In this document: one piece after another, positions 33,084-51,724 of the stretch
Layout: every line of letters starts with the position of its first letter
How positions within the stretch are numbered: the stretch's first letter is position 1
From: Cryobacterium zongtaii
GTDB taxonomy: Bacteria; Actinomycetota; Actinomycetes; Actinomycetales; Microbacteriaceae
Assembly (NCBI RefSeq): GCF_002909375.1
Contig: NZ_PPXD01000026.1
Location: forward strand, 372,001-436,000
DNA: 64,000 nucleotides
Direction of reading: 5' to 3'
Made by a program: the position numbers and the translations under genes
The notes under the pieces: generated by a model
The model's database searches: none
What the model saw: the letters and a program-made list of their open reading frames with translations, nothing else
What the model was told of the DNA's origin: nothing

Positions 33084-33766
33084 CCAACCTCTCCCCCGAC
33101 GCCGCCAGCGTCGCCCGTATGATCGACCACACCCTGCTCAAGCCCGAGGCCACCGCCGCCGATGTGACCGCCCTCATCGCCGAGGCCATCGAACTCGGCA
33201 CCTACTCGGTCTGCGTCTCCCCCTCGATGCTGCCGCTCACCATCCCCGCCGGCGCCGACCTCAAGGTCGCCGTCGTCTGCGGCTTCCCCAGCGGCAAGCA
33301 CCACAGCAGCATCAAGGCCACCGAGGCCGCCCTCGCCATCGCCCAGGGCGCCGACGAGATCGACATGGTCATCGACATCGGCGCGGCCAAGGCCGGCCGC
33401 TTCGCCGACGTGCAGTCCGACATCGCCGCGGTGCGCGTCAGCATCCCGGCCCCGAAGGTGCTCAAGGTGATCATCGAATTCGCGGCGCTGACGGATGCCG
33501 AGATCGTCGCCATCTGCGAAGCCGCCGTGGCCGCCGGTGCCGACTTCGTCAAAACCTCCACCGGCTTCCACCCGAGCGGTGGTGCAACCGCGCATGCCGT
33601 GCGCCTGATGAAGCAGACCGTTGGCCGCCGGGCTCAGGTAAAGGCGTCGGGCGGCGTTCGTACCTTCGATGACGCGCGCTCAATGATTGAAGCCGGTGCG
33701 ACACGCCTAGGCATCTCGGGCAGCGCCGCGCTCCTCGCCGGCAAAGCCCCGGGCGGCACCTATTAG
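33080..33766 (+). CDS. deoC: deoxyribose-phosphate aldolase
   Basis: A 228-residue class I aldolase: [35 protein letters not shown], the Schiff-base Lys in [17 protein letters not shown] (about residue 158) and the second Lys in [13 protein letters not shown]. It cleaves 2-deoxyribose 5-phosphate to acetaldehyde and glyceraldehyde 3-phosphate. The ATG overlaps the tkt stop as ATGA, so the two are coupled. A degraded second copy of the part around the active site lies at 39487-39715. Confidence 0.92.
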
Positions 33767-35981: not shown

Positions 35982-35996
35982 CAGATCGCCGTCCAA

Positions 35997-36845
35997 TTAG
36001 AGGTGCTTGTAAAGATTGAGTTTTTGGTGCATGAGATTGAGCAAACGCTCCTTGCTCTGCATAGGAAGCAAGATAAGTTGAAGGGTGACGGTCAACTTAG
36101 TCCCAAGATCTTTCCTGGCGAACCTTGACCACGCTTCCCTAGCCTCCAGTTCGATCGCCGCAATGTAGTCACTATCGTGTGCGACAGCTGCGGCAGACGC
36201 TTCACTTTCGTATGTGATGAGTACTGGAATAACAATTGTCTTGGCGATGTCATCGAGGCTCGTTGCCTCATCTAGAGCGTCGGCGAATTCAACGGCGTGG
36301 GGCCAATTCGAATCGAGCTTGTTGGTGATAGCCACGAATTCCCTCCGGAGAAAGTCCCGAGTGAGATGATCTGAGATCGATTTCGCAGCTTCGTCAATCG
36401 CGCTGTTCAAATCCTTGTAGAACTTCGCTTCCCCAAGCCAGATCTCCACTGAGTCAGATGCGGCGACCAAATGAACAGAGTCGAAGCCCTTGACTGTGTC
36501 GTTATCGCTGTCCTTGTAGTAGATCTTGCTAACAGCGGGCGTCGCGCCGAAAAAATCTACAAGAGCGGCATGCAAGATTAGTTCTCCGAACTCACCACGC
36601 CGACGATATTTGTTAGTTGCGTACACGACTTCAGCCGCACGCTTTAAAGATCGCGCGGCAGTTGCACCTGTGATTGCGTCGTGCTCCGAATAGCTCAATG
36701 CGAAGGAAGTGAGATGTCGCTGAAACAGGTCGTCCGTCAATGACTGCGCGCGCCAGTCGCCGAGTTCGAAGCCCGCGCAAAGCACGCTAAGTGCAGGGCT
36801 CAATGCCGCGTCTTGAAAACGAACTTGCAATACCGAACTAGGCAT
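35997..36845 (-). CDS. hamA: Hachiman nuclease HamA (DUF1837)
   Basis: A 282-residue DUF1837 protein. A PD-(D/E)xK-type nuclease core is visible: E85/E88 in RRRGEFGELILHAAL, D122 in KGFDSVHLV and the E139-x-K141 pair in IWLGEAKFY. These match the expected catalytic set of HamA, an effector nuclease held inactive by HamB. GAGAGG lies five bases before the ATG at 36845. It is the first gene of the two-gene Hachiman operon, ending just before hamB. Confidence 0.85.
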   Translation of the reverse strand: MPSSVLQVRFQDAALSPALSVLCAGFELGDWRAQSLTDDLFQRHLTSFALSYSEHDAITGATAARSLKRAAEVVYATNKYRRRGEFGELILHAALVDFFGATPAVSKIYYKDSDNDTVKGFDSVHLVAASDSVEIWLGEAKFYKDLNSAIDEAAKSISDHLTRDFLRREFVAITNKLDSNWPHAVEFADALDEATSLDDIAKTIVIPVLITYESEASAAAVAHDSDYIAAIELEAREAWSRFARKDLGTKLTVTLQLILLPMQSKERLLNLMHQKLNLYKHL

Positions 36846-37375
36846 CCGAACCTCTCGTTAAGGCCTCAATCTTCACTAGTTCGATATCGTCGGCCATGGA
36901 CGATTCCCCTTGCATCTCGTTTCAAGCTATCGCCCTCGCGAGTTGCGATTAGGTCGAGTACTAATCCTGCTGAACCCCACTGAGGCACATCCTATTGGCG
37001 CTCCCGAGTGGCCACTTGGGCGGCACCCATCCGAGTGACTTTACGTACGCCACCAATCAGAGCGAATTCCCACTTGCCGTCGACGAGCTCAGCTGCACAC
37101 TCCCCGGGCTAGTTATCGTCTTCAACTTTGAGTCGGTACGGGATGGGCTGCCTGCGCCTCAGCTGCGCTAAATGCGCTCCCCTCAGAGTGGCAGGCTTGG
37201 AGAAGACTAATGTCCACCGCCCACCCCCAGTCCGGGCGCTGTCGGCGTCTACCCTGCCCACGGCGGTGGCGCATTTCGGCGCTCGGCCAGATGAGCCCAC
37301 GGCACCAACTCCGCACATCCACCTGCCCGCAAGACGCTGAGTTGCGCCATCGAACAACGACCGAGAGACTGACGG
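36846..37375. other. 530-base space without a supported gene
   Basis: Between hamA and the NYN gene no frame on either strand shows a convincing protein. The stretch nearest hamA is AT-richer and should hold the hamA promoter. The part from about 37120 on is GC-rich and may belong to the damaged 5' region of the NYN gene. Confidence 0.4.
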
Positions 37376-38715
37376 GTGGGGACAGGTGCGCGTAACCGGT
37401 ACCGACCGACAAACGCCGAGCAGTCCGAAGATCGGGTTGGGCTCTACTTGGACTTCGACAACATCGTCACCTCTCGCTACAACCAGCTGCACGGCACCAA
37501 TCAGTTCGCCAAGGACAAAGCACGCCACCACACCAACAGCCATGCCAAGTCCGACCCGGCCGTCACCGCCCGCATCCAACTCGCAGTCATCGACATCGGT
37601 GCAATGCTGGACTACGCATCATCGTTCGGCTCCATCGTCATCAGCCGTGCCTACGCCGACTGGTCGGCCGCGGTCAACGCCCGGTACCAACGGCAGCTCA
37701 CCGACCGTGCCGTAGACCTCATCCAGCTGTTCCCGACAGTGGCGTCGCTCAAGAATGGGCGGACATCCGACTGGCCATCGATGTGATGGAGGATTCGTTC
37801 CGTTCCGCTGACCTCACTCACATCGTCATGGTTGCCGCTGACTCGGACTACATCCCGCTCGCCCAACACTGCAAGCGGATCGGCCGTTACATCATCGGCA
37901 TCGGCGTGTCAGGGGCCACCAGCACCTCCCTGGCCGCGGCCTGCCACGAGTTTGCCGACTACGATTCCCTCCCCGGTGTGGTGAGCGCGGCACAACTCAC
38001 CGCACACGTGGTCGAGTCAGCGGATGCGCCGGCAGCAGCATCTGCGGTGTCAGACTTTGTGTTGCCGGCCTGTGGAGAACCGGACGGTGCCGAAGCAAGC
38101 GCGCCCGCAAACCCGGCCGTCAGCCCGGCCGCGCGCAAGGCCGCGACAGCCCTGCTGGTTCGGGCAATGGACCTGCTGGCGAACAACGACGAGGAGTGGC
38201 AACACGCGTCGGCGCTCAAAAGGCAGGTGCGGCGCATGGATCCGTCATTTCAGGAACGGACTCTGGGATTCCGTCAGTTCTCGGAGTTTCTGAAGTCGCG
38301 CCACGCGGTCGTCGAGCTCGAAAGGAAGAGCCCAACCGGTCCTGTTCTACTCTGCCTTCGGTCTAATCGCCGCACGCCACCGCCAGGTGCGCTCGATCGG
38401 CACTGTGTCTTCGTGGCGGCCGGCATGCCTTTCGCGGTAGCGAGTTCATCCGATTCGGCCTCCATGGCCGCCATCCTCATCGGCAGTGCCCTGCGGGCCC
38501 GGGGCGCCCGTTCGCCTCCGCCTGCCTGGTGTTCAGCCGCTACGCGCACACACGCATCCGTCTCGGCGCGCAGATGGACCTCCGCGAAAATCGAAGCAGG
38601 CGACTCGGAAGAGGCGGTTGGCAATGCGGGAAACCGGCTGCATCTCATCGAAGGCTACCTCCCGGAAGTATCAATCTTTTCCAGACTTGGTACGAGCATC
38701 CCTCCCAGCGCTTGA
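37376..38715 (+). pseudogene. NYN-OST-HTH (LabA/DUF88-like) nuclease gene, frameshifted, 3' end replaced
   Basis: The first frame (GTG 37376) gives the NYN domain start VGLYLDFDNIVTSRYN and ISRAYADWSAAVNARYQRQL. It breaks at 37757-37759, where a run of three G should be four; with one G added it reads KNGADIRLAIDVMEDSF and joins the second frame. That frame has the acidic nuclease motif VAADSDYIPLAQHCKRIG and ends with an OST-HTH/LOTUS domain (about 38130-38330, ALKRQVRRMDPSFQERTLGFRQFSEFLKS). After about 38340 the frame runs into transketolase-like debris, so the natural C-terminus is lost. NYN-LOTUS proteins cut or bind RNA and appear in defence contexts. Confidence 0.7.
38440..38570 (+). 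pseudogene. transketolase fragment A
   Basis: This stretch aligns base by base with tkt 32233-32370: GCGAGTTCATCCG, then CATGGCCGCCATCCTC, CGCCCGTTCGCCTCC and CTGGTGTTCAGC are kept. A deletion of about 13 bases (ATCCGCGAGCACG in tkt) and several substitutions are present. It lies at the 3' end of the NYN gene, is in a different frame, and cannot be functional. Confidence 0.75.
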
Positions 38716-39128
38716 AAGACGCCATATCCGAGGGCGGCCGTCACCCCGAGGATTATGAACCCTTCCGTCCCCGCAATCGCTGACCAGAAGTTGAGGCCTC
38801 CAGCGACTGAGATCAGACTGATAACCGCGATCAGCAAGGTGAAGACCGCAATCAAGCTCCAGGTGGCGTAAGTAACGCCCCTGTTCGTTCCCGTCATCTT
38901 CGCCCGGTACATGCTCAGCCGCGCAATCTGCCTTCGAACGTGCACTGCGAACTGATCTTTTTCTGCGCCTTCGGGCAATTGGCCTAGGATCGCCACATCG
39001 ACCGCGAGCTGGCGCGTCCAGCGAGAGACTGGCAACAGTCTCGGCCCAAGAAAGACGATGAAGACAGTAGCTACGCTTGACAGGACTACACCGAAATTTT
39101 CCAACATGTTCATGACACTATCGAACAA
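38655..39128 (-). CDS. small membrane protein of unknown family
   Basis: A protein of up to 157 residues. A membrane helix (about residues 12-30, VLSSVATVFIVFLGPRLL) is followed by a basic amphipathic region with VRRQIARLSMYRAKMTG and two more helices (about 90-110 and 122-142). The TTG at 39128 has AGGAG very close by, and ATG 39113 is an alternative start. It is codon-wise intact between two tkt fragments, so it may be a cargo gene of the island. Unrecognised. Confidence 0.55.
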   Translation of the reverse strand: MFDSVMNMLENFGVVLSSVATVFIVFLGPRLLPVSRWTRQLAVDVAILGQLPEGAEKDQFAVHVRRQIARLSMYRAKMTGTNRGVTYATWSLIAVFTLLIAVISLISVAGGLNFWSAIAGTEGFIILGVTAALGYGVFQALGGMLVPSLEKIDTSGR

Positions 39129-39168
39129 TAACTCCTGTTGAGACCGAAATTCGGATGACGCTTCGGTC

Positions 39169-39225
39169 GCCCTTCATAGCGGCATCGCCCAGCAGAGCCC
39201 GTGGCGGCCGTTCACTTTTACCTAC
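39169..39225 (+). pseudogene. transketolase fragment B
   Basis: Nineteen codons match the same part of transketolase as fragment A: the reading ALHSGIAQQSPWRPFTFTY corresponds to [19 protein letters not shown]. It is cut off on the right exactly where the minus-strand ATPase remnant begins. Confidence 0.65.
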
Positions 39226-39344
39226 AGCGTTGTCCCAGTGCCATTCCTGCCGCTTATGACAACAGTCGGAGCAGCAGACAATCCGTCTACAGCAGCCCGA
39301 GCTACGCCCTTGCAGTTTCGTACCTCGAAGGGCTGAATCCGCAT
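39222..39344 (-). pseudogene. AAA ATPase N-terminal remnant
   Basis: ATG 39344 opens MRIQPFEVRNCKGVARAAVD and runs to VISGRNGTGTTL before a stop. This is the usual start of OLD/SMC-like AAA ATPases: a beta strand, then NCKG, then a P-loop GxNGxGK(S/T), here changed at the Lys. The gene is cut just at the P-loop, where transketolase fragment B begins. Confidence 0.6.
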
Positions 39345-39486
39345 CACATGCCTCGCTACCTGGCCACAGGAAGTGCCCCCTAGAAGAACGTATCGCCTCC
39401 TGCCCTCCACTTTCACAACGCTGCAAATCGAAGTCCACCTTATTGAAGGAACTCAGCGGTTGGAGGCGGGACCTGGCGTCACGACA

Positions 39487-39715
39487 ACGGATGCCGAGAT
39501 GGTCGCCGTCTGCTAGGCCGCCCTCGCTGCGAGCGCCGACTTCGTCAAGACGTCCATCGGTTTACACCCCGCCAGCGGGGCAACCGTGCTCGCCGTGCGC
39601 CTGATGATGCAGGCCGTGGGGAACCGGCCCAGGTGAATGCATCCGGTGGCGTGAGCAGCTTCGATGACGCCGTAGGCATGATCGGCGCACGCGCCAGTCG
39701 ATTCGGTGTCTCAAG
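39487..39715 (+). pseudogene. deoC remnant
   Basis: It aligns with deoC 33490-33718: ACGGATGCCGAGAT, GCCGACTTCGTCAA, GCCGTGCGCCTGATGA and TTCGATGACGC are shared. An in-frame TAG replaces the Glu codon of CEAAV, and a frameshift occurs in the AVGNRPQ region. It follows the two transketolase fragments in the same gene order as the intact operon. Confidence 0.8.
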
Positions 39716-40116
39716 TTGAGATGATCCTGCACTTCAGCACCATCTCCGCCACCGTCGCCGGCGATTCCTATAGGTCCGTCTGCGGCTAGATCGACGACTT
39801 TACTGTTTGGATTGAAGGCCGGGTTAAGAGCGTAGTAGTCGTCTATGGTCGCCTTACCGACAAAGAGAGTTTCTATGTCCCCGGCTTCGATGATGGCCGT
39901 GCCGAATCCACGGATGGTCTGATACTCACCCGCGGCAACAAGGCGATGGTGTATCTCGCCCGACAAGGTGGTGGTGCGGTTGGGGTCGGCGTCGCCGGAA
40001 TTATCGTGAGAGTGAAGAACCCCGTCGATCCAGCCGCCTCGGCGGAGTTGGCCTCCCACGAGCACTACGTCGGTCGATTTTCCTGTATCGAACCCCGTGT
40101 TCCACGCTGACGACAT
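39716..40116 (-). pseudogene. unknown gene truncated at deoC remnant
   Basis: ATG 40116 (GAAGGGTGG upstream) opens MSSAWNTGFDTGKSTDVVLV and continues with HSHDNSGDADPNRTTTLSGEIHHRLV and GFGTAIIEAGDIETLFVGKATIDDYYALNPAF. The convincing coding stretch ends near 39716; from there the frame reads antisense through the deoC remnant to 39562. The 3' part is therefore probably missing. The family is not recognised. The space from 40126 to 40277 holds no gene. Confidence 0.5.
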
Positions 40117-40277
40117 GGCCACCACCCTTCTGCGGCGGCCTGCGCCTTGGCGAAGGTGGCCGATTCCGGTCCTAGGCGGCGAAGACGGCAGAGCAGCAAC
40201 GAGCGCGCACGCTTCTGCATGCGCCCATAGGGCTATCCCCGGCGGTTAGCCCGGTTGTTGCATTTGGGTGGCTATCT

Positions 40278-43235
40278 TCACCGCCTTGCGGGCTCTCTCA
40301 TCTCCTTGCGGTATCGAGTTAAAGGCGCAGCCGAGGCACCGGCACCTGATGCAAAGTACTCGTAGAGACTTGATTCAATAGGGCTTGCGAGACCAAGGGT
40401 CATCGAGACCACATCGAGGTTGCTTCCTCCCTCCCCGGACATCTTTGTCTGTCTGGCGTCCTGAGATGTTGCTTGGCCGAGGTAGTAGAAGTCGGTACCT
40501 TCCGCGTCGTCCTTCTTCGCGAACACGTGAAGCGGAAGTCGATTCTCCACAATGGCCTTCACCTCTCCGCTAACAAGGGTGCGCCGACTGCGGGTGAACC
40601 AAGTCAAGGTTGACGGGTTGATAAAGGCATCTTCGTACTTCGTGCTCTCTGACACCTCAGCGCCCTTGTGGTACGTGACGAAAATGGGGCAGCTGTTCGA
40701 GAAGGTATCGACCTTGTAGCCGTAGATTGTGCTTTGCTGATTCGATTTCCAGTTGAGGAGTCGGCAGACGTCCTTGCGGGAATATCGTTGGCCTACTTCG
40801 AGCCGTCCCGTCCATTTGTAGCGGTGCCGGGCCAGATATAGCCCGGTGTCCAGGACATCCTGCACCTGATCGCGGAACATCGATTCTCTGTCCCATGCCT
40901 CGGAAAAGTCGTCGCCCAGGCGATAGATCCCGTCCCGGAGGGAGACGATCGGGGAGGAACCGTACTTTGCGACATCCGCCTCCGTGAAGAATGACAGGCT
41001 CAGCAGAGCGAGCACTGAATCGACAGTTGCCGGCTCGCTGGACAGATCGCTCTCCTCCAGCAATGCTTTGAATTCTTCAACCGTCACTCCGTCCCGGGCG
41101 GACAGAAGTTCAGCGAGGAGCAGGAGCTCATGGGGGCGCTTGCCGTTCAAGAGCTCCCCCGAGAGATAAGTCAGAATAGCGTTCTCGTAAGGGCTGGCCT
41201 CGACGTTGGCCGCCCGAACTTTGCACAGGAAACGCCAGTAGTTCTTCTGCTTCGTCGCTATCACCACAGGGTCAACCAGATCGAAGCGAGCGAAGTCGAG
41301 TAGCGCCGGCGGACGCCCCAACCGGTTCATGAGCTCGAGGAAGGACTTCTTCAGATTGGTCATGCTGTCGAGGGTTGTGGTCGCGAGGGACGCGAAAATC
41401 CTCTCCCTCGATATCTCGTCGAAGTTGACGCTCGATAGCCCCGCGATGGCGCCCGCTTCTTGAGCATCGATGATCTTCTTGCGGATCGAGTCCTTGTTCA
41501 GGGTGCTGTCGCCGAACAGCGCAATGGGGATCAGGTAGTTGTTGTCGTAATTGCCGATGAAGTCGATGACTACGAGGTGGTCCTTGCCTGCAGCCTTTCG
41601 AAGTCCGCGCCCCAATTGCTGTGTGAACACGATGCTGGAGAGCGTCTGCCGGAGCATGATCACTTGATTGACCGATGGGATGTCGATTCCCTCGTTGAAG
41701 ATGTCTACAGTCGCGATGTAGTCAAGCTCGCCGCACTCCAACATCTGCACAACCAGCTCGCGTTCTTCGACCGAGTCTGTGCCGCTCAGTGCGCGGGTGC
41801 GCAGCCGGTGGCCATGGACATCCCGTCGATTCAGAAGAGTGGCGAGCTCGGCCGCCTCAGCGTTCTTGCTGCAGAAAATCAGCCCTCGAACCGGAACGCC
41901 AGCGTGGCCGTAGCGTTCGATCGTCGACACGAGATGATCCACCCGCTCAGAGGCCACAAGCCGACTGAGGTCTGCCACCTCATCGATGACCTCGCCGTCC
42001 GCTTGAACAAAGTCGGTCACGCCGTAGTAATGAAACGGCGCCAACATGTCTGCCTCAAGGGCCTTCTGGAGGCGAATCTCGTACGGCACGTTGTAGTCGA
42101 ATAGCTCAAAGACGTTGAAATCGTCGGTACGCTCCGGAGTCGCTGTCATTCCGAGGAGGAAGTCCGGCTCGAGGTAGTCGATCAGCCGTCGGTAGCTGAC
42201 GGCACCGGCACGGTGGACTTCGTCGATCAGGACATAGTCAAAGGCTTCGGGCGGGATCGCTTCGAGATTCTCTGGCCGTGACAGCGATTGGATCGAAGCA
42301 AAGACGTAGCGGCGGTCGAGTTCCTTCTTAGACCCCACAAACTTGCCAAAGTCGCTATCCGGGGCACCCAGTACTCGCTTGAACTCATCGATGGCACGGT
42401 CGAGGATCTGTTCGCGGTGCACAACGAACAACATCCGCTCCGGTGAATAGGCACGCACATCCAGGGCGGAGAGGATTGTCTTTCCTGTCCCTGTTGCAGA
42501 AATAACGACTGCCTTGTGCTCACCCGCATCCCGCAGCGCAGCAATCTCAGCAAGTGCTTCGACCTGCATTGCGTTCGGGAAGATCATTCCGCCCAGCGGA
42601 AAACCACCAGACGGTTCCGTCCCGCCGGGCATGGCCAGAGAAGCGCGAGGCGGTGCCGACCAGGTCAACGCATACATGTCGATCCAGGCCCGGGTAAGAG
42701 CAGCTGAAGCGTCAACATGTGCTTGAGCGGCTCGCTTCAGCTGCTGCACGATGTCACCGTCGGGAAGTGCTGAGAAGCGCAGGTTCCACTCGTGGTTCTG
42801 AAGCAGCGCGCGTTCTGTCAAGTTGGAACTTCCAACGATGGCTGTGGTGCTCGATTCTTGCTCGAAGATGTACCCCTTGGCATGGAAGCCTGCAGCCGAA
42901 TCTGGGTGCACGTAGACGTCGACGCCCTCTAGGTTAAGCAGCTCATAGAACGCGGCGGGTGAGTTGAATCCGAGGTAGGTAGACGTGATGATCGTTCCGG
43001 TACCCCGAAAATCGAGGAGGGCCTGTTTGAGCATGGCGATCGCGCTCGGCGTGATGAATGCGACGGAGAAGACGAACCGCTCTGAGCGCTTCAGCTCATT
43101 GCGAATGGCCCGAAGCATCGTATTGCCGTCGGTGTTCGAGACCAGGGTCGGATTAAATACCTGATCGGCCTCAACCTGTGAATCGAGAAATCCAAACGTG
43201 TTGTCGCGGGTTAGCTGCCTGCTGGTCGAACTCAA
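40278..43235 (-). CDS. PLD-nuclease/SF2 helicase with DUF3427 domain
   Basis: A 985-residue protein. An N-terminal phospholipase D-like nuclease (about 35-170) has the motif HAK (118-120) and SSN (136-138). An SF2 helicase core (about 220-590) has Walker A ATGTGKT (247-253), DEVH (338-341) and QQLGRGLRKA. A C-terminal DUF3427 domain (about 800-950) shows CPIFVTYHKG, TLTWFTRSRRTL and FAKKDDAEGTDFYYLG. It starts with TTG overlapping the NUDIX stop (TTGA). Such proteins are found with NUDIX hydrolases in defence islands; the mechanism is not known to me. Confidence 0.85.
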   Translation of the reverse strand: MSSTSRQLTRDNTFGFLDSQVEADQVFNPTLVSNTDGNTMLRAIRNELKRSERFVFSVAFITPSAIAMLKQALLDFRGTGTIITSTYLGFNSPAAFYELLNLEGVDVYVHPDSAAGFHAKGYIFEQESSTTAIVGSSNLTERALLQNHEWNLRFSALPDGDIVQQLKRAAQAHVDASAALTRAWIDMYALTWSAPPRASLAMPGGTEPSGGFPLGGMIFPNAMQVEALAEIAALRDAGEHKAVVISATGTGKTILSALDVRAYSPERMLFVVHREQILDRAIDEFKRVLGAPDSDFGKFVGSKKELDRRYVFASIQSLSRPENLEAIPPEAFDYVLIDEVHRAGAVSYRRLIDYLEPDFLLGMTATPERTDDFNVFELFDYNVPYEIRLQKALEADMLAPFHYYGVTDFVQADGEVIDEVADLSRLVASERVDHLVSTIERYGHAGVPVRGLIFCSKNAEAAELATLLNRRDVHGHRLRTRALSGTDSVEERELVVQMLECGELDYIATVDIFNEGIDIPSVNQVIMLRQTLSSIVFTQQLGRGLRKAAGKDHLVVIDFIGNYDNNYLIPIALFGDSTLNKDSIRKKIIDAQEAGAIAGLSSVNFDEISRERIFASLATTTLDSMTNLKKSFLELMNRLGRPPALLDFARFDLVDPVVIATKQKNYWRFLCKVRAANVEASPYENAILTYLSGELLNGKRPHELLLLAELLSARDGVTVEEFKALLEESDLSSEPATVDSVLALLSLSFFTEADVAKYGSSPIVSLRDGIYRLGDDFSEAWDRESMFRDQVQDVLDTGLYLARHRYKWTGRLEVGQRYSRKDVCRLLNWKSNQQSTIYGYKVDTFSNSCPIFVTYHKGAEVSESTKYEDAFINPSTLTWFTRSRRTLVSGEVKAIVENRLPLHVFAKKDDAEGTDFYYLGQATSQDARQTKMSGEGGSNLDVVSMTLGLASPIESSLYEYFASGAGASAAPLTRYRKEMREPARR

Positions 43236-43630
43236 ACTCGAAAGTCTTTCATGACCCGTTCCACAGCAGGTACGTCAGCGGGAGCCCATTCAAGCTGGTC
43301 CAGCTCGGTCGCCTGTACCCAGCGAATCTCTGAATGCTCGGTGAGGCGAGGTTCAGCCCCAACTAGCGAGCAGTAGTACGTGGTGAGAATTACGATCCCG
43401 AAGTCATACTCGTGCTCCGTGGTTTCGACGTGCTCGCCGATCTCTGCCGAGCAAAGCAACTCTTCGTCTAGCTCGCGGAGCAAAGCTTGCTCCGGCGACT
43501 CGTTCGGCTCGATCTTTCCCCCAGGGAATTCCCACATGCCAGGCAGCGACATTGTGGAGCTGCGACGTGCCGCAAGAATTGTCTGGCCCCGGGTGAGAAC
43601 AGCACCGACGACATTGATTCTCTTCTTCAC
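43232..43630 (-). CDS. NUDIX hydrolase (MutT/8-oxo-dGTP diphosphatase-like)
   Basis: A 132-residue NUDIX domain with a full Nudix box GKIEPNESPEQALLRELDEEL (residues about 36-56; G-x5-E-x7-RE-x2-EE). It follows the MutT start INVVGAVLTRGQTILAARRSS and GMWEFPGGK. The start is GTG at 43630. Four bases overlap the PLD-helicase gene. MutT-like enzymes clear oxidised or modified NTPs; in this setting it may instead act on nucleotides that control the helicase. Confidence 0.88.
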   Translation of the reverse strand: MKKRINVVGAVLTRGQTILAARRSSTMSLPGMWEFPGGKIEPNESPEQALLRELDEELLCSAEIGEHVETTEHEYDFGIVILTTYYCSLVGAEPRLTEHSEIRWVQATELDQLEWAPADVPAVERVMKDFRV

Positions 43631-43754
43631 AAGTGCACTCCGTTGCTTGGCCGTCGATGCGTATTGTCAGCTTAGCTAGCGACGTGCTGGAGGATGCTCA
43701 CCATTGCGCCCGATGGTCCCCTCCCCTATCAGCCGCCCGTATCGGAGCTGTCTC

Positions 43755-45530
43755 TTAGTTGTGCGGCATGAACTGCTGCAAGTGCACACGAAGAGCTGGA
43801 TCGCACACGTAGATGAAGGTGCCCCGGATGCCGCGCGTCAGCAGGACCGCGTAGATATTGGTGATGAAACGCAAAAGGTCTTCGTCGGTATAGACCTTGC
43901 CAAGGACCGCGTTGTTTTCCTTGCCCTTTTTGTCGAAGTACTGTGACCGATCGACGACAAGCCGCCCAGCGCCAGCGTCGTAGCTCAGGTCGGGGCCGAT
44001 GATGACCCCGGCGTAGTTGAGGTCGTACCCCTGCACGGTGTGGATAGACCCGACCTCTTCAAGCGATGTCGCAGAAGCAACCCAGTCAGTCTGCGTGCCA
44101 TTCCAACGAAGCTGAACGCCCGGAAGCTCGATGTCGTAGGCGCTTTTGTCGGTCTTGGTCGTCCATGCCCAGGCGAATCCGGCCAACAGCCGCGATAGTC
44201 CGACCTCGGCATCCAAGCGACGGATTTCTGCGTGCATGTCAGCGACGCTGTCGAACATGCGAAGGTCATATCCTTCAAACGTCTCAGGACGCATTGGTAC
44301 CGAGTCAGCCCCGACGTCGGGGCTGAGTATCCGCCGGACGTACCCCACGTAGTCCGCGCCGGCGCGCACCCGCATTTGGGTGGCGAGGGGGTAGTTGCGA
44401 TTGGCCGCGCGCGCACGTTCTACAAGCTGCGAGAGGACTTCGGGAGGAAGGTCCGCGGGCCGAACGCTCTGTGCGGCGTCAAGCAGGAGAATCTGGTGTG
44501 TGCTCTTGGCCCGGATCCAATCGAGCTGGGTCTTCGTTGTGTCATCGGTTCCGAACAGCTTCTCCGTGATCACCTGGAACTTCTTGTTTTGCACGCCTGA
44601 TGGCTGATTGGCTCTCTGGTTGAGACGATGCGATTCGTCGACAATCAGGAGATCAAAGTGCTCGTCCGACTCCCCCGCCTCGAACGCCGTCATCACCATG
44701 TCGGGCTTCAATCCAGGCGTCTTCTTGAACACCTTCTTGATCGAGTTCCGCAACGACTGTTGGGGAACCACAAGACCGATTCGGATTCCGGAAAGGCGTT
44801 TCTTGTATTCACCGCCGAAGAACTCGGAGAAGAGGGAATCGCTATCAAGATCTTCAGTCGGAACAGAATTGGCAATGTCCACGAGCAGCTTCAACATGTA
44901 AATGGCGACAACGGTCTTACCAGTGCCGGGTTCGCCCTGCACGACTGTAGTGCTCGTGGCACCAGAACCCAGGTCCTCGAATAGGCCCTCGAGGATGCCC
45001 TCAACCGCGACTGCCTGGTCCAAGGTCAGTGCTTTGAAGGGCGACAGCTTGAAGAGATCGCTGTTCTCAATCTCCGGGATACTCCGCGTGAAGACCCCAT
45101 CGCGCCTGAGCTGATCAAACACCTCCAGAAACGAGGCTTGATAGCGGTCTCGATCGAAGTAATCCGATTCGGTGATTCCATCGTTGCGATTCAGGACCCG
45201 GTACGAACCATCGCCGGCGAGCATCCTAATAAGGTACGACTCGAGGTCGAGGCAGACAGACTTGTTGAAGGACTCGTCGACGATGACCCTGACGGTACTG
45301 AGGTGTCTCTTGTCCGGGGCAACCAGATGCTGGCGCATCCGCGCCACGGCATTTCGGGACTCACCCACGTACACGTCGTTGAGTCGGCCGCCTCGCATGG
45401 TCGGGCGACTGGCAGTGACATCGTCCAGGACGTACACCACAGGCCAGTTTGTATTGCGGTGGTCGCCGGGGGCCCAAGTCGAGATTGAATCGCTAGTGAA
45501 CTTCAGATGCTCGATCTTAAAGGGCGTCAT
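43755..45530 (-). CDS. GIY-YIG nuclease fused to DUF2075 (Schlafen-like) helicase
   Basis: A 591-residue protein. The N-terminal GIY-YIG domain (about 30-115) has VVYVL (31-35), VYVGES (53-58), R61/R65 and E97 in the DLESYLIRML segment. The DUF2075 helicase (about 165-580) has Walker A GEPGTGKT (199-206), LIVDESHRL, LLLDAAQSV and a C-terminal TVQGYDLNYAGVIIG. The ATG lies 14 bases inside the MazG-like gene. DUF2075 proteins are related to the Schlafen group III helicase part. A nuclease plus helicase suggests degradation of foreign DNA. Confidence 0.85.
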   Translation of the reverse strand: MTPFKIEHLKFTSDSISTWAPGDHRNTNWPVVYVLDDVTASRPTMRGGRLNDVYVGESRNAVARMRQHLVAPDKRHLSTVRVIVDESFNKSVCLDLESYLIRMLAGDGSYRVLNRNDGITESDYFDRDRYQASFLEVFDQLRRDGVFTRSIPEIENSDLFKLSPFKALTLDQAVAVEGILEGLFEDLGSGATSTTVVQGEPGTGKTVVAIYMLKLLVDIANSVPTEDLDSDSLFSEFFGGEYKKRLSGIRIGLVVPQQSLRNSIKKVFKKTPGLKPDMVMTAFEAGESDEHFDLLIVDESHRLNQRANQPSGVQNKKFQVITEKLFGTDDTTKTQLDWIRAKSTHQILLLDAAQSVRPADLPPEVLSQLVERARAANRNYPLATQMRVRAGADYVGYVRRILSPDVGADSVPMRPETFEGYDLRMFDSVADMHAEIRRLDAEVGLSRLLAGFAWAWTTKTDKSAYDIELPGVQLRWNGTQTDWVASATSLEEVGSIHTVQGYDLNYAGVIIGPDLSYDAGAGRLVVDRSQYFDKKGKENNAVLGKVYTDEDLLRFITNIYAVLLTRGIRGTFIYVCDPALRVHLQQFMPHN

Positions 45531-45837
45531 ATTTGGTACTGCGCCCCCGAGCCTTGTCGGCAGGGTATTTCGCTCTCGTGGTCACGAGCTTGTCGCGAAC
45601 GATCTGATCAGGGTCTGCCCCGATGCGGTCGGCGAGCATGATGCAGTAGGTGAGGACATCGGCGAGTTCTTCGCGCACTCGATCCATGTCGGCGTCAGCG
45701 TTCCATTGGAAGCACTCGAGAAGCTCGCTTGCCTCAATGGAGATACTCTTTGCCAGGTTCTCTGGAGTGTGGAACTGCGCCCAATCGCGCTCCGCTACGA
45801 AAGCTGCGATCTCCTGCCGGATTGTCTGATCGACCAT
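45517..45837 (-). CDS. MazG-like nucleotide pyrophosphohydrolase
   Basis: A 106-residue all-helical MazG/RS21-C6-type domain. The metal-binding motif is visible as ISIEASELLECFQW (about 31-44) and REELADVLTYCIMLAD (about 55-70), the EExxE/ExxD arrangement. It hydrolyses (d)NTPs to monophosphates and pyrophosphate. It is the first gene of the minus-strand set and overlaps the GIY-YIG-helicase gene by 14 bases. The ATG at 45837 is the only plausible start. Confidence 0.88.
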   Translation of the reverse strand: MVDQTIRQEIAAFVAERDWAQFHTPENLAKSISIEASELLECFQWNADADMDRVREELADVLTYCIMLADRIGADPDQIVRDKLVTTRAKYPADKARGRSTKYDAL

Positions 45838-46019
45838 TCGGCCAACCTAGCAGTTGGTGCGTCAACGGATTCCGTCGACGGCTGAGAGACCACCGACCTC
45901 CGCTGCGTGCCTGGCTCTGAACGAGGAAGTGACGAGATCTGCTCACGGTGGACGCGATCCACACTACGACTAACAAAACGATGCACCCGCTTATTGCTCG
46001 AGTCCGCCAGACTGAGCCC

Positions 46020-47060
46020 ATGCCTCTGTACCGCTATTCAACTTCCAAGATCGAACCTCTAGTGCGTACGACTCTGGCGGCTGAGCACATACGAGAGCGC
46101 GACGACCTGCAGCGCCTTCTGATTGAGCGGATGAGCATCATCAGCGATGACCTTCTCGTCATCGCCGAGGAGTACAACTTGTTCAAGGACTCCCGCCGGC
46201 GGATTGACATTCTCGCCATCGATCGCACTGGCACCTTGGTCGTCATGGAGTTGAAGCGAACGGAAGATGGTGGGCATATGGAGCTCCAGGCGCTGCGCTA
46301 TGCAGCAATGGTCTCCACTGTGACCCTGGACCACCTGGTACAAACACTTGCTGATTCTCGCAACATCCCAGTAGCTGAGGCCAGGGATACCATCCTCAAC
46401 TGGCTAGATGAACCCATCGAAGAGCTGCCTAATCACGTTCGAATTGTCCTCGTTGCTGCGGACTTCAGCACCGAGATTACTAGCACCGTCCTATGGCTAA
46501 ACGAAAACTACAGCACAGACATCTCCTGCTTCCGCCTCGTCGCTTACCGACTGGATAAAGACGTGCTGCTCGATGTGCAGCAGATCATCCCCCTCCCCGA
46601 AGCAAAAGACTTCCAGATTCAGCAACGTCAGAAGGGGGCCGCGGTCACTGCCGGGATCTCTGCAGGGCGAGATTTCACGCGATACAACCTCCAGCTAGCA
46701 GGCACGATCTTCCCCAACCTGAGCAAGCAAGCCGCAGTCAAGCTCGCCCTGCAAAAGCTTCATGGCGCCGGCGTACACCTTCAAGAACTTCAGTCGGTCA
46801 CGCAGCCTGGGCGGTGGCTTGCTGTCCAGCCGGCCCCTGATGAATCAGTCGAAGCTGCATTCATTCGCGAACACCCAGCCCGCACACCCGCTCATCTCTG
46901 GTTCGACCTCGACATCATCGAAGATGGAATCACCTGGGTCACCCCCCGATTCGGCGGCACCAGTACCGAAGGGATGTTGGACGGCCTCGCGAAGGTGGCT
47001 GGAGCACATGCATCACTAACTTGGAGCCGGTTCGAGTCCGACGTGACGGTTCCGAACTGA
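46020..47060 (+). CDS. NucS/DUF91-like endonuclease
   Basis: A 346-residue protein. The N-terminal PD-(D/E)xK nuclease domain has the core RRIDILAIDRTGTLVVMELKR (D at about 63, E-x-K at 77-79). A Q-like helix ELQALRYAAMVST follows, then a second half (about 200-346) of unknown fold. The same core is found in NucS and in DUF91 proteins. The ATG at 46020 is chosen because the frame opened at 45948 has no similarity. It is divergent from the pyrophosphohydrolase-helicase set, so it may share its promoter region. Confidence 0.8.
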   Translation: MPLYRYSTSKIEPLVRTTLAAEHIRERDDLQRLLIERMSIISDDLLVIAEEYNLFKDSRRRIDILAIDRTGTLVVMELKRTEDGGHMELQALRYAAMVSTVTLDHLVQTLADSRNIPVAEARDTILNWLDEPIEELPNHVRIVLVAADFSTEITSTVLWLNENYSTDISCFRLVAYRLDKDVLLDVQQIIPLPEAKDFQIQQRQKGAAVTAGISAGRDFTRYNLQLAGTIFPNLSKQAAVKLALQKLHGAGVHLQELQSVTQPGRWLAVQPAPDESVEAAFIREHPARTPAHLWFDLDIIEDGITWVTPRFGGTSTEGMLDGLAKVAGAHASLTWSRFESDVTVPN

Positions 47061-47270
47061 GTGAACCGCTCTGACACGCGTCCGCTCATGTGGGCGGCAG
47101 GTGGGGAGCCGCGTTATTACCCTCCGTGTGAGAGACGCGTCAGCCCACTGACCCTGAGCCGGGCCGCTGCCTGTTCGATTGCCGCGGGAGCCCTCCCGCG
47201 AGACTTGACCCGGCGCCCGCGCAGGACCATGAAAAATGGAACTACCCCGGCCCTAAGAAGCACCCTACCG

Positions 47271-48164
47271 TCAGCCGATAAACCTGTTGCTCTTCCCGAG
47301 GTTGCACGACTCACAGAGCGTTTGCAGGTTCTCCGGCACGGTCAGGCCATCGCGGCTTACCGGCGTGATGTGGTCGATGTGCAAGACTGCCCCGTCTGCT
47401 GCCGAGGCGCCGCACATCCGGCATCGGTAGTCATCTCTTCGCAAGATCGTCACACGGAGACCTGAGGTCATCAGGCTTCGCTCCCGCTGACGCAGGGCAG
47501 CTGTCGTGGACTGTCGTGCACGAGACGCCTGCGCGGCGTCAAGGCCCTGCTGGAGCTGTTCGAAGTTCCAGTCCACGTGCCGTGAATACGAGTTCTGGCC
47601 CTTTGGGCTCGTGTACTTCACCGTTGTGGTGACCTTGGCTGTCGGAGTTGGATACGCCAGCTTGCGGCGATTGAAGTCCTTCTTTTCGATTGCAGCGAAT
47701 CTCGCGTCGCTGAGGCGGGGATGGCTGCTTCTGCCGAGCGAGCCAAATTCGATGGCTTCGACGTCGTGGTTGTACGTTCTGAAATGCCTCGTCGGCACCA
47801 ACCGCGTCTCGATCTCTTGCAGGTACCACAGCTCACTCTCGAGGACATTTACACTCATCCGTGAAGACAGATCGAAGCGATCAAATTTCGCCTTGGTGTT
47901 AACGGACACAGAGTACGAGTGGTGAATCGGCGCGGTGCTCGGCACGAGTGATTGAGATCGCAAGTTCAGCTCCTCGAGCCGCTTCAAGGCGTCGCTCGAA
48001 CCGCGCACGAGATGCCGCCGTCTAAGTGTCACCAGCGCCCAGACCAGGGCAACTGCGAGAACGATAATGACTGCGACGAATACGAACGTTAGTCCAGCCG
48101 TCAGGCTATCCGCAGGAACCGCGGGTTCTGATTCGTACGGGGGCAAATGGCCTAGAGTGCGCAA
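47271..48164 (-). CDS. membrane-anchored HNH endonuclease
   Basis: A 297-residue protein. One N-terminal membrane helix (about 22-48, AGLTFVFVAVIIVLAVALVWALV) is followed by a middle domain (about 80-225) of unknown fold. The C-terminal HNH nuclease (about 243-297) has the zinc Cys pair CRMCG, LHIDHITPVSRDG (the HNH His-His region) and LCESCNLGKSNR. It starts with TTG 48164, five to six bases after AAAGG. Tethering an HNH nuclease to the membrane suggests action on incoming DNA at the cell surface or as an abortive effector. Confidence 0.8.
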   Translation of the reverse strand: MRTLGHLPPYESEPAVPADSLTAGLTFVFVAVIIVLAVALVWALVTLRRRHLVRGSSDALKRLEELNLRSQSLVPSTAPIHHSYSVSVNTKAKFDRFDLSSRMSVNVLESELWYLQEIETRLVPTRHFRTYNHDVEAIEFGSLGRSSHPRLSDARFAAIEKKDFNRRKLAYPTPTAKVTTTVKYTSPKGQNSYSRHVDWNFEQLQQGLDAAQASRARQSTTAALRQRERSLMTSGLRVTILRRDDYRCRMCGASAADGAVLHIDHITPVSRDGLTVPENLQTLCESCNLGKSNRFIG

Positions 48165-48185: not shown

Positions 48186-48629
48186 TTATGAATGGTCCCG
48201 CGCACGGGCCGCGAGTTCATGGGTCTCTGACAGGTCGGAAGGGCGCAGCACCCACAAGTTAGCAGCGCACGGCTGTCGGAAAACGATCATCCCCCAGTAG
48301 CTGGTGCCCCAGTTCGGGGCCTCGCGCTTCGACTGTGTGTGCCTCCAAAGACCGAGGCCGGCCATGAAGGAGGGGCTCTGGCATATTCTCCACTTGCCGA
48401 GCCTGTGCGCCAGGGCCAGCTGCGAGGTGGGCTGCTCGGTGGTGATCGCCACGAGCACCTGGTAGCTGCGGGGGCCGCCGGGCACATCGGCCACGGCGAC
48501 GCTGCCGGCCCGGGAGTAGCCCTGGTACATGGCGGTGAGGGACCAGCCCAGCTTTGTTTCGATGCCGTTGGAGGTCCAGTCGATCTCGGGGGCGGCATCC
48601 GGGGCCGGGGTGGGGTCTGGTGCGGGCAT
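48186..48629 (-). pseudogene. MarR regulator fragment joined to unrelated sequence
   Basis: ATG 48629 opens a MarR-type N-terminus: LGWSLTAMYQGYSRAGSVAVADVPGGPRSYQVLVAI and TSQLALAHRLG (residues about 27-80). Near 48390 the similarity stops within the DNA-binding region and the frame goes on as KWRICQSPSFMAGLGLWRHTQ. That part reads like real protein but is not MarR. The regulator has lost its recognition helix and wing. This point is the likely right edge of the island. Confidence 0.6.
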
Positions 48630-48698
48630 AGTCGGATCGCATCAGAGTGAGATCATCTTGCGATCGGATGGTTGTAGTCGAGCGCCGCGAGCTACCCG

Positions 48699-49400
48699 TC
48701 ACCTCGACCGCAGTAACCTCCCCAGGCGCGACGCGCCAACGCCGGTCGAGGTGCGGGTAGACGTCTTGAGCAGCACGAAGCCGACGACAGCGCTCCACAG
48801 CGTGAGGGTATCGAAGGCGACACGTTCAATAAGTCCCCGGCCCAACGCCTGGACAGACCCGCCACCGAGGACATCGACGAAGAGAACGAAGCCCAGAACG
48901 GACACGAGGAGGCTCCCGATCGTCAGGGCGGAGATCCAGTGCGCAGCAGAGTTGCCTCGGGAGGCGACAGCGAGCAGGATCATGCCGCCCCACTGAGTGA
49001 CGGCCTGAGCGAGGGCCACCACATTATGCGCTTCGGGATGGGTGTCCCAGGGGAACACACCAACCAGCATCACGAACACACCGCCCGCCGCGAGGAACGC
49101 CATGGCCACTCGCCCCGTGCGCAGCCGTGGCCAGGCCGACCAGAGCAGGAGTGAGCCGATCAGGAGCGTCGCTCCCACGACGATGAACGATCCGTTCACC
49201 AGCAGGTGCGCCGGAGAGCAGATGTAACGCTCCACGCGGGTACCGACATCGAAGGTGTCGCAGGTGGTGACGCCGAGATCGCTGATCAGGTTCGACGTCC
49301 ACGAGTACCGCTGCGGCCACTGCGCGGCCGCGATCAGCTGGGCCGGCACCGTCACGAGGCCAGCGATCCAGAGCAGTGCGCCCCATCGAAGTCGTGTCAT
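48699..49400 (-). CDS. DUF998 membrane protein
   Basis: A 233-residue protein with six membrane helices. It has the family pattern: a first helix ending QLIAAAQW, YSWTSNLISDLGVTTC, a helix-loop region with HLLVNGSFIVVGATLLIG, VFPWDTHPEAHN and LAVASRG. Members are of unknown function. It faces away from the 5'-truncated gene at 49376 and overlaps its first bases. Confidence 0.85.
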   Translation of the reverse strand: MTRLRWGALLWIAGLVTVPAQLIAAAQWPQRYSWTSNLISDLGVTTCDTFDVGTRVERYICSPAHLLVNGSFIVVGATLLIGSLLLWSAWPRLRTGRVAMAFLAAGGVFVMLVGVFPWDTHPEAHNVVALAQAVTQWGGMILLAVASRGNSAAHWISALTIGSLLVSVLGFVLFVDVLGGGSVQALGRGLIERVAFDTLTLWSAVVGFVLLKTSTRTSTGVGASRLGRLLRSR

Positions 49401-49969
49401 CCCACGACCCTACATTCACCCTGTATTGCCCCGAGGAGTACGAGCGGGATGCGCTGTACCTCTTCACCCCGGATGTGATGGCGCGCCTGATCGATCGAGT
49501 GCGCGGATTCGATGTGGAGATCATCGACGATTGGCTGTTGTTGGTCAGCAGCCGCGACGTGGTGACCCTCGACCCAGAATCTTGGCAGAAACTTTTCGAT
49601 GCAGTCGGCGCCCTGAGCGACAAGATCGACCGGTGGGAGCGCTGGCGCGACGACCGGCTGCCGACGGTGCCGCCGGTCACAACGGGCACGGGTGCCGGCA
49701 CGGCCGCGGTCGGGCTGACGCCTGCCCCGAGATCCGGTCGGGTGGCTAAGCGCGGCCGACGGCTACTGATGCGCCTGGGCGTGGGCGAGCGAATCGGGCT
49801 GCTCGCCTTCGCGCTGCTGATGGTCGGCGGTGAGATCTCGATGTTCCGCTCGGGCCCGCTGCTGCACGCCGGTATCGACCGGGGGTGGCGGTGGGCGCCG
49901 GCTATGAACCTCAGAGCGCCGGGCGGTGCTGGCGGAACTCCGACGGTGTCGCTCCGACCTGGCGCTTGA
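49376..49969 (+). pseudogene. DUF3137-like gene, 5' part missing
   Basis: The 197-codon frame begins inside the family core: FTLYCPEEYERDALYLFTPDVMARLIDRV and the following FDVEIIDDWLLLV correspond to the second half of DUF3137-type proteins. It then has a helix with LSDKIDRWERWRD and a C-terminal hydrophobic segment (about 140-160). The usual 100-150 N-terminal residues are absent, because the DUF998 gene occupies the upstream side. It converges on, and overlaps, the AraC gene at the 3' end. Probably a truncated gene. Confidence 0.45.
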
Positions 49970-50837
49970 AGGCGGTGCTGAAGGCATAGGCGTTGGTGTA
50001 GCCGACCTTGCGAGCGACTTCTGAGACGGTGTGTTCGGGGGAATGCAGCAAGTCGCCCGCGAGGGTGAGGCGCCAGCGGGTGAGATAGCTCATCGGCGGT
50101 TCGCCAACACCGGTCCTGAACCGGGCGGCAAGCGAGGCCCGTGAGGTGTTGACCCGACGGGCAAGGGTCTCCACTGTCCACGGAGCTGCGGGTTCGGCAT
50201 GCAAACACTCGAGAGCCTGCCCCACCACAGGGTCGGAGCAGGTAAGCCAGGTTGCCTCTCTCGCGCGGTCGGGATCGTTGACCCAACTCCGGATCGTACT
50301 GATCACCAGCACGTCCAGGAGCCGGTCCACGACGACCTGGGCTGCCGGATCATCGTTCGCGATCTCGCGTTCGAGCAGACCCACGAGCGAGCCGTCGGCA
50401 CGGTCGTTCGGCACGATGGCGAGTCGAGGCAGGGCGCGGGAGACGAGGCCGCCGGCCTCAGTGGTTCGTTCGTATGTGCCGACCAGAACCGAGGTCTCGC
50501 CAGGGAACGCATTGCCCCAGCGCCGGATGCCGTGTCGCAGCTCATCCCGCAGATCGCGGCCATCCAGGGTGGTGCAGACCTGGCCGGGACCGATCTCGAT
50601 CGACGGCGGGCTGGCGGAGGCATCCGTCACGGTATAGGGCTCGGGGCCACGAATCAGAGCAACGTCACCGGCCAGGAGCAGCACTCCGTCCACGCGGGCC
50701 TGCCCTCGGGTCACGGCGAGCACAGTGAGGGCGGCGTTGTCTCGAACGCAGATGCCCCACGGGGCGCTCATGTGCATGGCGAGAGCAAAAGCGCCGGTTG
50801 CACGAGGCCCGTCCAGGAAATGTGTCAACGGATCCAT
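49911..50837 (-). CDS. AraC family transcriptional regulator
   Basis: A 308-residue protein. The cupin_6-type N-terminal ligand domain (about 10-190, PWGICVRDNAALTVLAVTRGQA) precedes two AraC HTH motifs at the C-terminus (WTVETLARRVNTSRASLAARFRTGVGEPPMSYL and HTVSEVARKVGYTNAYAFSTAFKRQVGATPSEFR). It starts six bases after a TAGTCT box and is probably leaderless. It is divergent from the NmrA-type oxidoreductase pair, which it likely activates. Confidence 0.9.
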   Translation of the reverse strand: MDPLTHFLDGPRATGAFALAMHMSAPWGICVRDNAALTVLAVTRGQARVDGVLLLAGDVALIRGPEPYTVTDASASPPSIEIGPGQVCTTLDGRDLRDELRHGIRRWGNAFPGETSVLVGTYERTTEAGGLVSRALPRLAIVPNDRADGSLVGLLEREIANDDPAAQVVVDRLLDVLVISTIRSWVNDPDRAREATWLTCSDPVVGQALECLHAEPAAPWTVETLARRVNTSRASLAARFRTGVGEPPMSYLTRWRLTLAGDLLHSPEHTVSEVARKVGYTNAYAFSTAFKRQVGATPSEFRQHRPAL

Positions 50838-50843
50838 CCCACT

Positions 50844-50849
50844 AGACTA
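50844..50849 (-). promoter_or_regulatory. -10 element of leaderless promoter (AraC gene)
   Basis: Minus-strand TAGTCT followed by AGTGGG and the ATG at 50837. Confidence 0.45.
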
Positions 50850-50917
50850 GACGCTGACAAAGGGTTTGTGCAGTGTGACCCATTCCGCGTCCAAGCCGAT
50901 GCCAGTGTACTGAAGCC

Positions 50918-51724
50918 ATGACTACTCTCATCCTCGGTGGTGCCGGACGATCCGGCACGCGCATCCTCGACCGTTTCGCCGCCTCCGGGTTGCCGGCGCG
51001 GCCCGCATCCCGCCGCACCGGCTTCGACTGGGAAGACCGCGAGACCTGGGCTTCCGCTCTCCGCGGCGCCTCGGCGGCGTACGTCTGCTTCACCCCCGAC
51101 CTCGCCTTCCCGGGCACGCCCGACAAGATGGCCGCACTGGGCGTACTGGCCGCTCAACACGGGCTCGAGCGGCTCGTGCTGCTCTCGGGTCGCGGCGAGG
51201 AGGGCGCAAGATTGAGCGAGGCGGCCCTGCGCAGCGGTGGGGTTCCGACCACGGTCTTGCGCTGTTCCTGGTTTCAACAGAATTTCTCCGAGCACTTTCT
51301 CGCCGGTCCGGTTCGTCGCGGTCGACTGCGCCTTCCGGCACCCGACGTGCCCGAAGCCTTCGTCGATCTCGGCGACGTCGCGGATGCCGCTGTTCTGGCC
51401 CTCACCCGACCGGACCCGCTCGACGCCACGTACGAGTTGTCCGGGCCAGAGCTGCTGACCTTCGCGCAGGTGGCCGAGGTTCTTACCGACGCCTGTGCGC
51501 GGCGGATCGTGTTCGAATCGGTCGCCGTTCCGACATTCGTTGACGACCTCGCCGCAGACGGAGTGCCCGCCGAGGACGCCACACCCCTCGCGCACCTCTT
51601 CACCGACATTCTGGATGGTCGTAACGCCTCGCTCGCGCACGGCATCCAGGCCCTGCTGGGGCGCCAACCGTCCTCGCTGAAGGCCTACGCGGGGCGCACC
51701 GCCGCGTCTGGAGTCTGGTCGTGA
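50918..51724 (+). CDS. NmrA-like NAD(P)-binding protein
   Basis: A 268-residue atypical short-chain dehydrogenase: the nucleotide-binding start TTLILGGAGRSGTRILDRFAASG (GGxGxxG at about 7-12), a sequence LVLLSGRGEEGAR and WFQQNFSEHFL in place of the SDR Tyr-Lys pair, and VDLGDVADAAVLALT. Such proteins act as redox sensors or reduce quinones. Its stop overlaps the start of the DUF1772 gene by four bases (GTGA). Likely controlled by the divergent AraC protein. Confidence 0.85.
   Translation: MTTLILGGAGRSGTRILDRFAASGLPARPASRRTGFDWEDRETWASALRGASAAYVCFTPDLAFPGTPDKMAALGVLAAQHGLERLVLLSGRGEEGARLSEAALRSGGVPTTVLRCSWFQQNFSEHFLAGPVRRGRLRLPAPDVPEAFVDLGDVADAAVLALTRPDPLDATYELSGPELLTFAQVAEVLTDACARRIVFESVAVPTFVDDLAADGVPAEDATPLAHLFTDILDGRNASLAHGIQALLGRQPSSLKAYAGRTAASGVWS

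Follow-up and report, generated by a model that had tools for sequence, protein, structure and literature searches.

The closest described relatives of a four-gene set found in a 64,000-nucleotide stretch of Cryobacterium zongtaii DNA (hereafter the window), in which two small nucleotide hydrolases are each encoded directly ahead of a large nuclease-helicase, are a type IV restriction enzyme, a phage-defence candidate, two nucleotide-pool enzymes and a GIY-YIG nuclease. The restriction enzyme, SauUSI, is described as a single polypeptide sufficient for activity that targets DNA containing 5-methylcytosine (5mC) or 5-hydroxymethylcytosine (5hmC) and reportedly needs ATP or dATP together with the modified DNA (PMC3874153). 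PDC-S07, a NUDIX phage-defence candidate of PADLOC, was co-localised with type IV restriction-modification (RM) in 23/23 cases in Streptococcus suis, with no function or substrate given in the available part of that paper (PMC12813430), and MutT homologues beside SauUSI homologues are shown in a figure legend of another (PMC7641849); a link between NUDIX proteins and type IV restriction is thus already published. Orf135/NudG of E. coli and RS21-C6/DCTPP1 have been named jointly as highly specific 5-methyl-dCTP sanitation enzymes (PMC10742078), with kcat/Km values for NudG of 1.3e6 for 5-methyl-dCTP against 4.7e4 M-1 s-1 for CTP (PMC5158307). CMoRE/PD-T4-3 is a GIY-YIG nuclease with a sensing domain and a third tyrosine (GIYxY) which defends against modified DNA, and the word helicase is absent from the available text of its paper (PMC12923530).

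All four window genes lie on the minus strand within a region (34001–48000) with a G+C fraction of 0.578, compared to 0.685 outside it. A MazG-like (DCTPP1-like) pyrophosphohydrolase of 106 aa (45517–45837; PF12643, 2.1e-20) overlaps by 14 nt (45517–45530) a protein of 591 aa with a GIY-YIG part and an SF1 SLFN-g3/DUF2075 helicase (43755–45530; PF09848, 1.4e-62, a family which we take to be the former DUF2075). After a gap of 124 nt (43631–43754), a NudG-like NUDIX hydrolase of 132 aa (43232–43630; PF00293, 8.2e-20) overlaps by 4 nt (TTGA, 43232–43235) a SauUSI-type PLD-SF2 helicase-DUF3427 restriction enzyme of 985 aa (40278–43235). No sigma-70-like promoter or terminator was called within the gap, although the consensus used may not fit the host. 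The gene order, strand, overlaps and gap given in the original prediction, which had been made from the sequence alone, proved exact to the base, and Pfam agreed with its domain identities for the MazG-like, helicase, NUDIX and PLD-SF2-DUF3427 proteins. The closest named relative found was Cryobacterium arcticum SK-1, with a helicase of 93% identity.

The explanation preferred here, at a probability of roughly one half, is that the locus comprises two distinct modules, each translationally coupled and both stacked within a single defence island, namely NUDIX-SauUSI (module A) and MazG-GIY-YIG-helicase (module B), the hydrolases of which would act as cleaners of modified dCTP (in module B possibly of dCTP). 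It draws on gene order, conserved coupling, family resemblances, the avoidance of C5-methyltransferases by the nuclease family of module A and not by module B, and the separability of the modules at an orthologous locus.

Module A and the C5-methyltransferase test

The PLD protein was assigned by PADLOC to mREase_IV (2.2e-233), was matched by DUF3427 (4e-84) and contained the Pfam domains PLDc_2, ResIII and Helicase_C. PLD, SF2 helicase and DUF3427 follow in this order and at full length, which is the SauUSI-type architecture, and residues 14–961 of 985 match PDB entry 7clg (6.1e-229), deposited as a putative helicase and which we take to be SauUSI. The motifs HAK, GSSN, SATGTGKT and DEVH, presumably the catalytic motifs of the PLD and helicase domains, are intact in the translation. 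The window enzyme differs from SauUSI in its NUDIX partner with the overlapping reading frame.

An order-wide sample of 297 genomes contained PLD-SF2 homologues in 76, made up of 22 in a close and 54 in a distant class; the search scored at most two candidates per genome, and second copies may be missed. A few of the distant-class matches (G012, G046 and G163) were partial, and model searches confirmed the presence of DUF3427 and the match to mREase_IV within this class in the two scanned proteins only (loci L055 and L067). A NUDIX gene was located just upstream of the close homologues in 22/22.

The window NUDIX protein matched PDC-S07 at 5.3e-54, as did its relative in L067 (1.1e-42). It scored 101.4 bits against the NudG model, 79 against MutT and 101.9 against a general Nudix model, all below the NCBIfam cut-offs; that of the NudG equivalog is 156, and the protein is therefore labelled NudG-like and not NudG. 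It also aligned better to NudG (2rrk, 3e-21), to which it is 37% identical, than to E. coli MutT (1mut, 1.3e-11). The column of the Nudix catalytic glutamate (E33) held Glu in 31/31 module-linked rows (28 distinct). Among the NudG residues which we take to have functional roles (D118, R72 and R77), the D118 column held Asp in the same 31/31 rows (28 distinct) and Asn in E. coli MutT. No nuclease gene lies beside nudG in E. coli K-12.

Should the PLD enzyme cut 5mC DNA, genomes that carry it are expected to be without C5-methyltransferases, which gives an indirect genomic proxy for its target. The methyltransferases were identified by PF00145 at cut-offs of E<=1e-40 and E<=1e-15, with statistics that ignore kinship. 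At the stricter cut-off, matches were present in 8/76 PLD-SF2 genomes against 100/221 others (p 1.5e-8), with 0/22 in the close class (p 3.8e-5) and 8/54 in the distant class (p 2.6e-4); at the looser one the counts were 17/76 and 122/221 (p 6e-7). An N6-methyltransferase control was flat (37/76 against 113/221, p 0.79). PF00145 matched nothing in the window's genome up to an E of 10, and in genus g11, compared by eye, nine PLD-SF2-bearing and eleven PF00145-bearing genomes showed an overlap of zero.

Module B and its target

The helicase was found at an identity of at least 47% in 29 genomes of the order sample, giving 30 loci with the window, and a MazG gene adjoins it in 30/30. It lies at the helicase 5' end in 28 of these (in L058 split over two frames), and in two loci of one genus (L063 and L064) a different MazG, 35–39% identical, lies directly downstream. 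Among 44 loci from two collections that may have species in common, 32 show an overlap of exactly 14 nt, which is not chance; it is 4 nt in the ORF calls of the Bacteroidota loci L041–L044. In the Flavobacteriales locus L045 a gene of 136 aa sits between MazG and helicase. Additional partial helicase copies resembling decayed tandem copies are found downstream of the full one in L033 (15092–18012) and L034 (16696–16908).

The GIY-YIG label of the original prediction was borne out in residues and fold and not by Pfam, which reported no such domain in the window helicase at E<=0.001. The part in question spans about residues 28–115; the GIY and YIG tyrosines and the catalytic Arg and Glu are all present, and Y33, Y54-x-G56-E57, R64, H68, E97 and N114 are invariant across 39 aligned homologues, as are the Walker residues of the helicase. 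A model of the N-terminal part gave no fold match at E<=0.001, its best match being 2lwf (probability 0.99 but E 0.038, TM 0.56–0.59), an entry which we take to be a GIY-YIG-fold domain. The assignment rests on the invariant residues together with this match. Compared to CMoRE, the window protein reads V-V-Y33-V-L, without the third tyrosine, and is followed by an SF1 helicase. The helicase model (pLDDT 88) was matched by Foldseek to the SF1 helicases Dna2, RecD, Upf1 and SLFN14. At least 14 distant relatives on viral contigs (24–31% identity) and 12 plasmid records (25–30% identity) were uninformative.

The best PDB sequence match of the MazG-like protein was RS21-C6/DCTPP1 (2.8e-18), aligned over residues 5–104 of 106, and seven of eight DCTPP1 pocket residues are kept (W47, E63, E66, W73, E95, D98 and Y102). 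It differs in that DCTPP1 is a eukaryotic housecleaning enzyme. MazG has been counted among predicted, unvalidated defence domains (PMC13092281). Within the openly licensed literature, no paper joining MazG, GIY-YIG and DUF2075 turned up, and among the papers listed by looser searches no title or abstract start described module B or the sanitiser idea.

No avoidance of PF00145 was seen in genomes with the MazG-helicase pair (at E<=1e-40, 9/29 against 99/268, p 0.69; at E<=1e-15, 12/29 against 127/268), and nothing therefore ties module B to 5mC. As PF00145 is avoided with the nuclease family of module A and not with module B, this argues that the two modules use different self/non-self rules. 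A 5mC target for module B like that of SauUSI was considered and is unsupported by these counts, by a predicted 5mC writer at the orthologous SK-1 locus (see below) and by genome G128, with a PF00145 gene about 6 kb from the helicase. It should also be noted that MazG-helicase genomes are poorer in N6-methyltransferases (9/29 against 141/268, p 0.03, uncorrected for the several tests made), which is a weak lead on the target.

Possible roles of the hydrolases

By family resemblance, the PLD-SF2-DUF3427 protein would be a SauUSI-type, ATP-dependent cutter of DNA with 5-methyl- or 5-hydroxymethyl-cytosine, and its NUDIX partner would most likely hydrolyse 5-methyl- or 5-hydroxymethyl-dCTP, a role proposed here for PDC-S07 that fits module A because SauUSI targets 5mC/5hmC. 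Modified cytosine, whether it comes from the salvage of degraded DNA or from synthesis by a phage, would thereby be kept out of host DNA, averting self-cutting, and the phage would also be deprived of its modified precursor. Module B, for which we infer an anti-phage function, would be an ATP-driven GIY-YIG nuclease-helicase with a trigger other than ordinary 5mC, and its DCTPP1-like MazG would hydrolyse a modified dCTP or, just as plausibly, dCTP itself. The NUDIX protein is like NudG and MazG is like DCTPP1, precisely the two families that have been named for 5-methyl-dCTP, and it is newly proposed, on sequence grounds, that both hydrolases may clean modified dCTP.

Several observations weigh against this explanation. 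In the distant PLD-SF2 class, a NUDIX gene (searched with the window NUDIX as query) stood beside PLD-SF2 in just 5/17 genomes with flanks, and the hydrolase is therefore dispensable there. Among PDB sequences, the NUDIX protein comes closest to 5x1x (2e-46), deposited as a mutator MutT protein, and Arg occurs in 0/31 NUDIX rows at either of the NudG R72 and R77 columns. In a docking model of DCTPP1 the base is contacted by H38 (PMC4491611); this residue is replaced by Ile in the window MazG and by Ile, Leu or Val in 45/45 ungapped rows. SauUSI alone is reported to be active in E. coli (PMC3874153), so that a NUDIX protein is not required for cutting. The avoidance of C5-methyltransferases is not absolute, with matches at E<=1e-15 in 5/22 close (p 0.025) and 12/54 distant-class genomes, the test is uncorrected for phylogeny, and module B shows no such avoidance.

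The original prediction had seen the same logic, a small nucleotide-cleaving enzyme coupled to a large nuclease-helicase, occurring twice with unrelated protein families, and this was upheld by the conservation of each pair. More tentatively, it may be that modification-dependent or replication-targeting nuclease-helicases of bacteria recruited a modified-dCTP pyrophosphatase as a standing partner twice, from unrelated folds ('clean the pool, cut the DNA'), with the trigger base being kept from host DNA and the phage's precursor supply blocked. If so, the MazG-GIY-YIG-SLFN helicase pair would represent a defence system that has not been described, directed at a cytosine modification other than 5mC.

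Rather unlikely is abortive infection, in which the hydrolases would drain dCTP or all dNTPs once the nuclease detects a phage, starving replication. The tight coupling suits such an effector-sensor pair, and it would also suit module B with its missing 5mC link; however, no extra regulatory domain was found in the 106- and 132-aa hydrolases, which look like constitutive housecleaning enzymes, and the partner nuclease already has its own effector domain. A signal-erasing role, in which the hydrolases remove a nucleotide that holds the nuclease off, as suggested earlier, or on, shares the argument from operonic coupling, and nucleotide signals are used by other defence systems. It is nevertheless improbable, as domain searches of the four proteins reported neither a cyclase nor a nucleotidyltransferase or nucleotide-sensor domain at E<=0.001, and SauUSI is reported to depend on ATP or dATP and modified DNA (PMC3874153).

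Adjacency of the modules and the surrounding island

In the order sample, PLD-SF2 and MazG-helicase were present together in 10 genomes, which is not significantly above expectation (p 0.27). In 4 of these 10, namely the window, G011 (L067), G078 (L055) and G281 (L057), which belong to four families, PLD-SF2 follows MazG-helicase in the same orientation, either directly or, in two of them, after a NUDIX gene. All four genes stand in the same order in L067, with identical 14- and 4-nt overlaps, and its PLD protein is only about 33% identical, so it is not a recent copy. Assuming independence, the binomial probability of at least 4/10 adjacent is 3e-5 at a chance of 1/50 per genome and 1e-3 at 1/20. 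The recurrence in four families, including a full copy, makes the stacking more than a single accident; the adjacency thus exceeds random placement, yet it is facultative. PLD-SF2 was not found next downstream in 25 of the 29 MazG-helicase genomes, including G272, where the helicase ends at a contig edge and the SauUSI gene is found on a different contig, with no helicase next to it. In G120, some 7 kb separate PLD-SF2 from MazG-helicase, on the latter's other side. A class-level sample of 394 genomes, some of them also in the order sample, contained the helicase profile (E<=1e-60) in 17 genomes, DUF3427 (identified by PF11907) in 59 and both in 3; the two were adjacent in 2.

At the orthologous locus of C. 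arcticum SK-1, MazG-helicase is present without NUDIX-SauUSI, in place of which it bears a predicted 5mC writer (the search for SauUSI in SK-1 covered this locus only). On Bacteroidota contigs with a whole helicase gene (L041–L045), both modules lie within a few kb and convergent in 2/5; these are the Flavobacteriales loci L044 and L045. A distant SLFN-g3 helicase (26–28% identity) stands head to head with a distant-class PLD-SF2 in L106, L107 and L108 (G032, G087 and G115; two families), with no MazG match beside it in these three loci.

It could also be argued that the adjacency is mere defence-island clustering and that the hydrolases are housekeeping genes caught by chance. The island does hold Hachiman and other candidates, and the genes that follow MazG-helicase vary (two genomes that share the window's genus have NYN-OST-HTH, and HNH, McrB-like AAA, AAA_21, GmrSD_C, a weak PD-(D/E)XK and metabolic genes also occur; the scan took in 20 proteins, a subset of the neighbours, three of which were PLD and NUDIX genes from L055 and L067). 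However, the 30/30 and 22/22 pairings with widely conserved overlaps rule out chance capture for the pairs, which leaves this explanation very improbable as a whole and possible for the joining of module A to module B. Least probable is a single four-gene system, with the separate occurrences as reduced or decayed versions: the four stacked genomes, the L067 copy and the two convergent Bacteroidota loci speak for it, and it falls on the 25 of 29 genomes without the adjoining module, the lack of co-occurrence enrichment, the SK-1 locus and the differing behaviour toward C5-methyltransferases. Thus, the genome searches showed each pair to recur widely and the two to adjoin in only 4/29, and of the two options in the original prediction, one undescribed system or two systems side by side, the SK-1 locus and the differing C5-methyltransferase pattern support the second.

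The defence-tool run proposed with that prediction returned calls for mREase_IV, PDC-S07 and Hachiman on the island. The Hachiman pair (33879–36845, minus strand) lies beside deoC and consists of HamA (35997–36845; PADLOC, 6e-115) and HamB (33879–35996; 3e-214). Between this block and the four-gene set is a degraded copy of the deoC 3' part (39487–39713, plus strand), matching 33080–33766 (plus strand) at 78% over 185 bp, which suggests that insertion at the 3' end of deoC has taken place repeatedly. In C. arcticum SK-1, this hotspot holds other cargo. An NYN-OST-HTH gene (37376–38715, plus strand) is split over two frames (NYN profile 16–75, then 85–144), and is one continuous ORF just downstream of MazG-helicase in G125 and G227 (L047 and L048). 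A PDC-S11 candidate with weak, below-cut-off similarity to NucS (45948–47060, plus strand) is oriented divergently to MazG; at 47271–48164 (minus strand) lies an HNH protein whose similarity to IscB is likewise weak and below the cut-off. A DNA search with the right flank (48600–51500) gave no match in five relatives; further right, 52176–59882 matches SK-1 at 91.9%.

Taken together, these results describe a conserved pairing of MazG with a GIY-YIG-SLFN helicase gene, on which no publication was found, and add evidence from genome counts, accompanied by a control, that 5mC-writing hosts rarely carry the PLD-SF2-DUF3427 family. They also offer a testable reason for the presence of NUDIX proteins beside type IV restriction enzymes, a link which the available parts of the published work give only as co-localisation. 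If the hydrolases do clean modified dCTP, the restriction of modified phage DNA would gain a nucleotide-pool arm.

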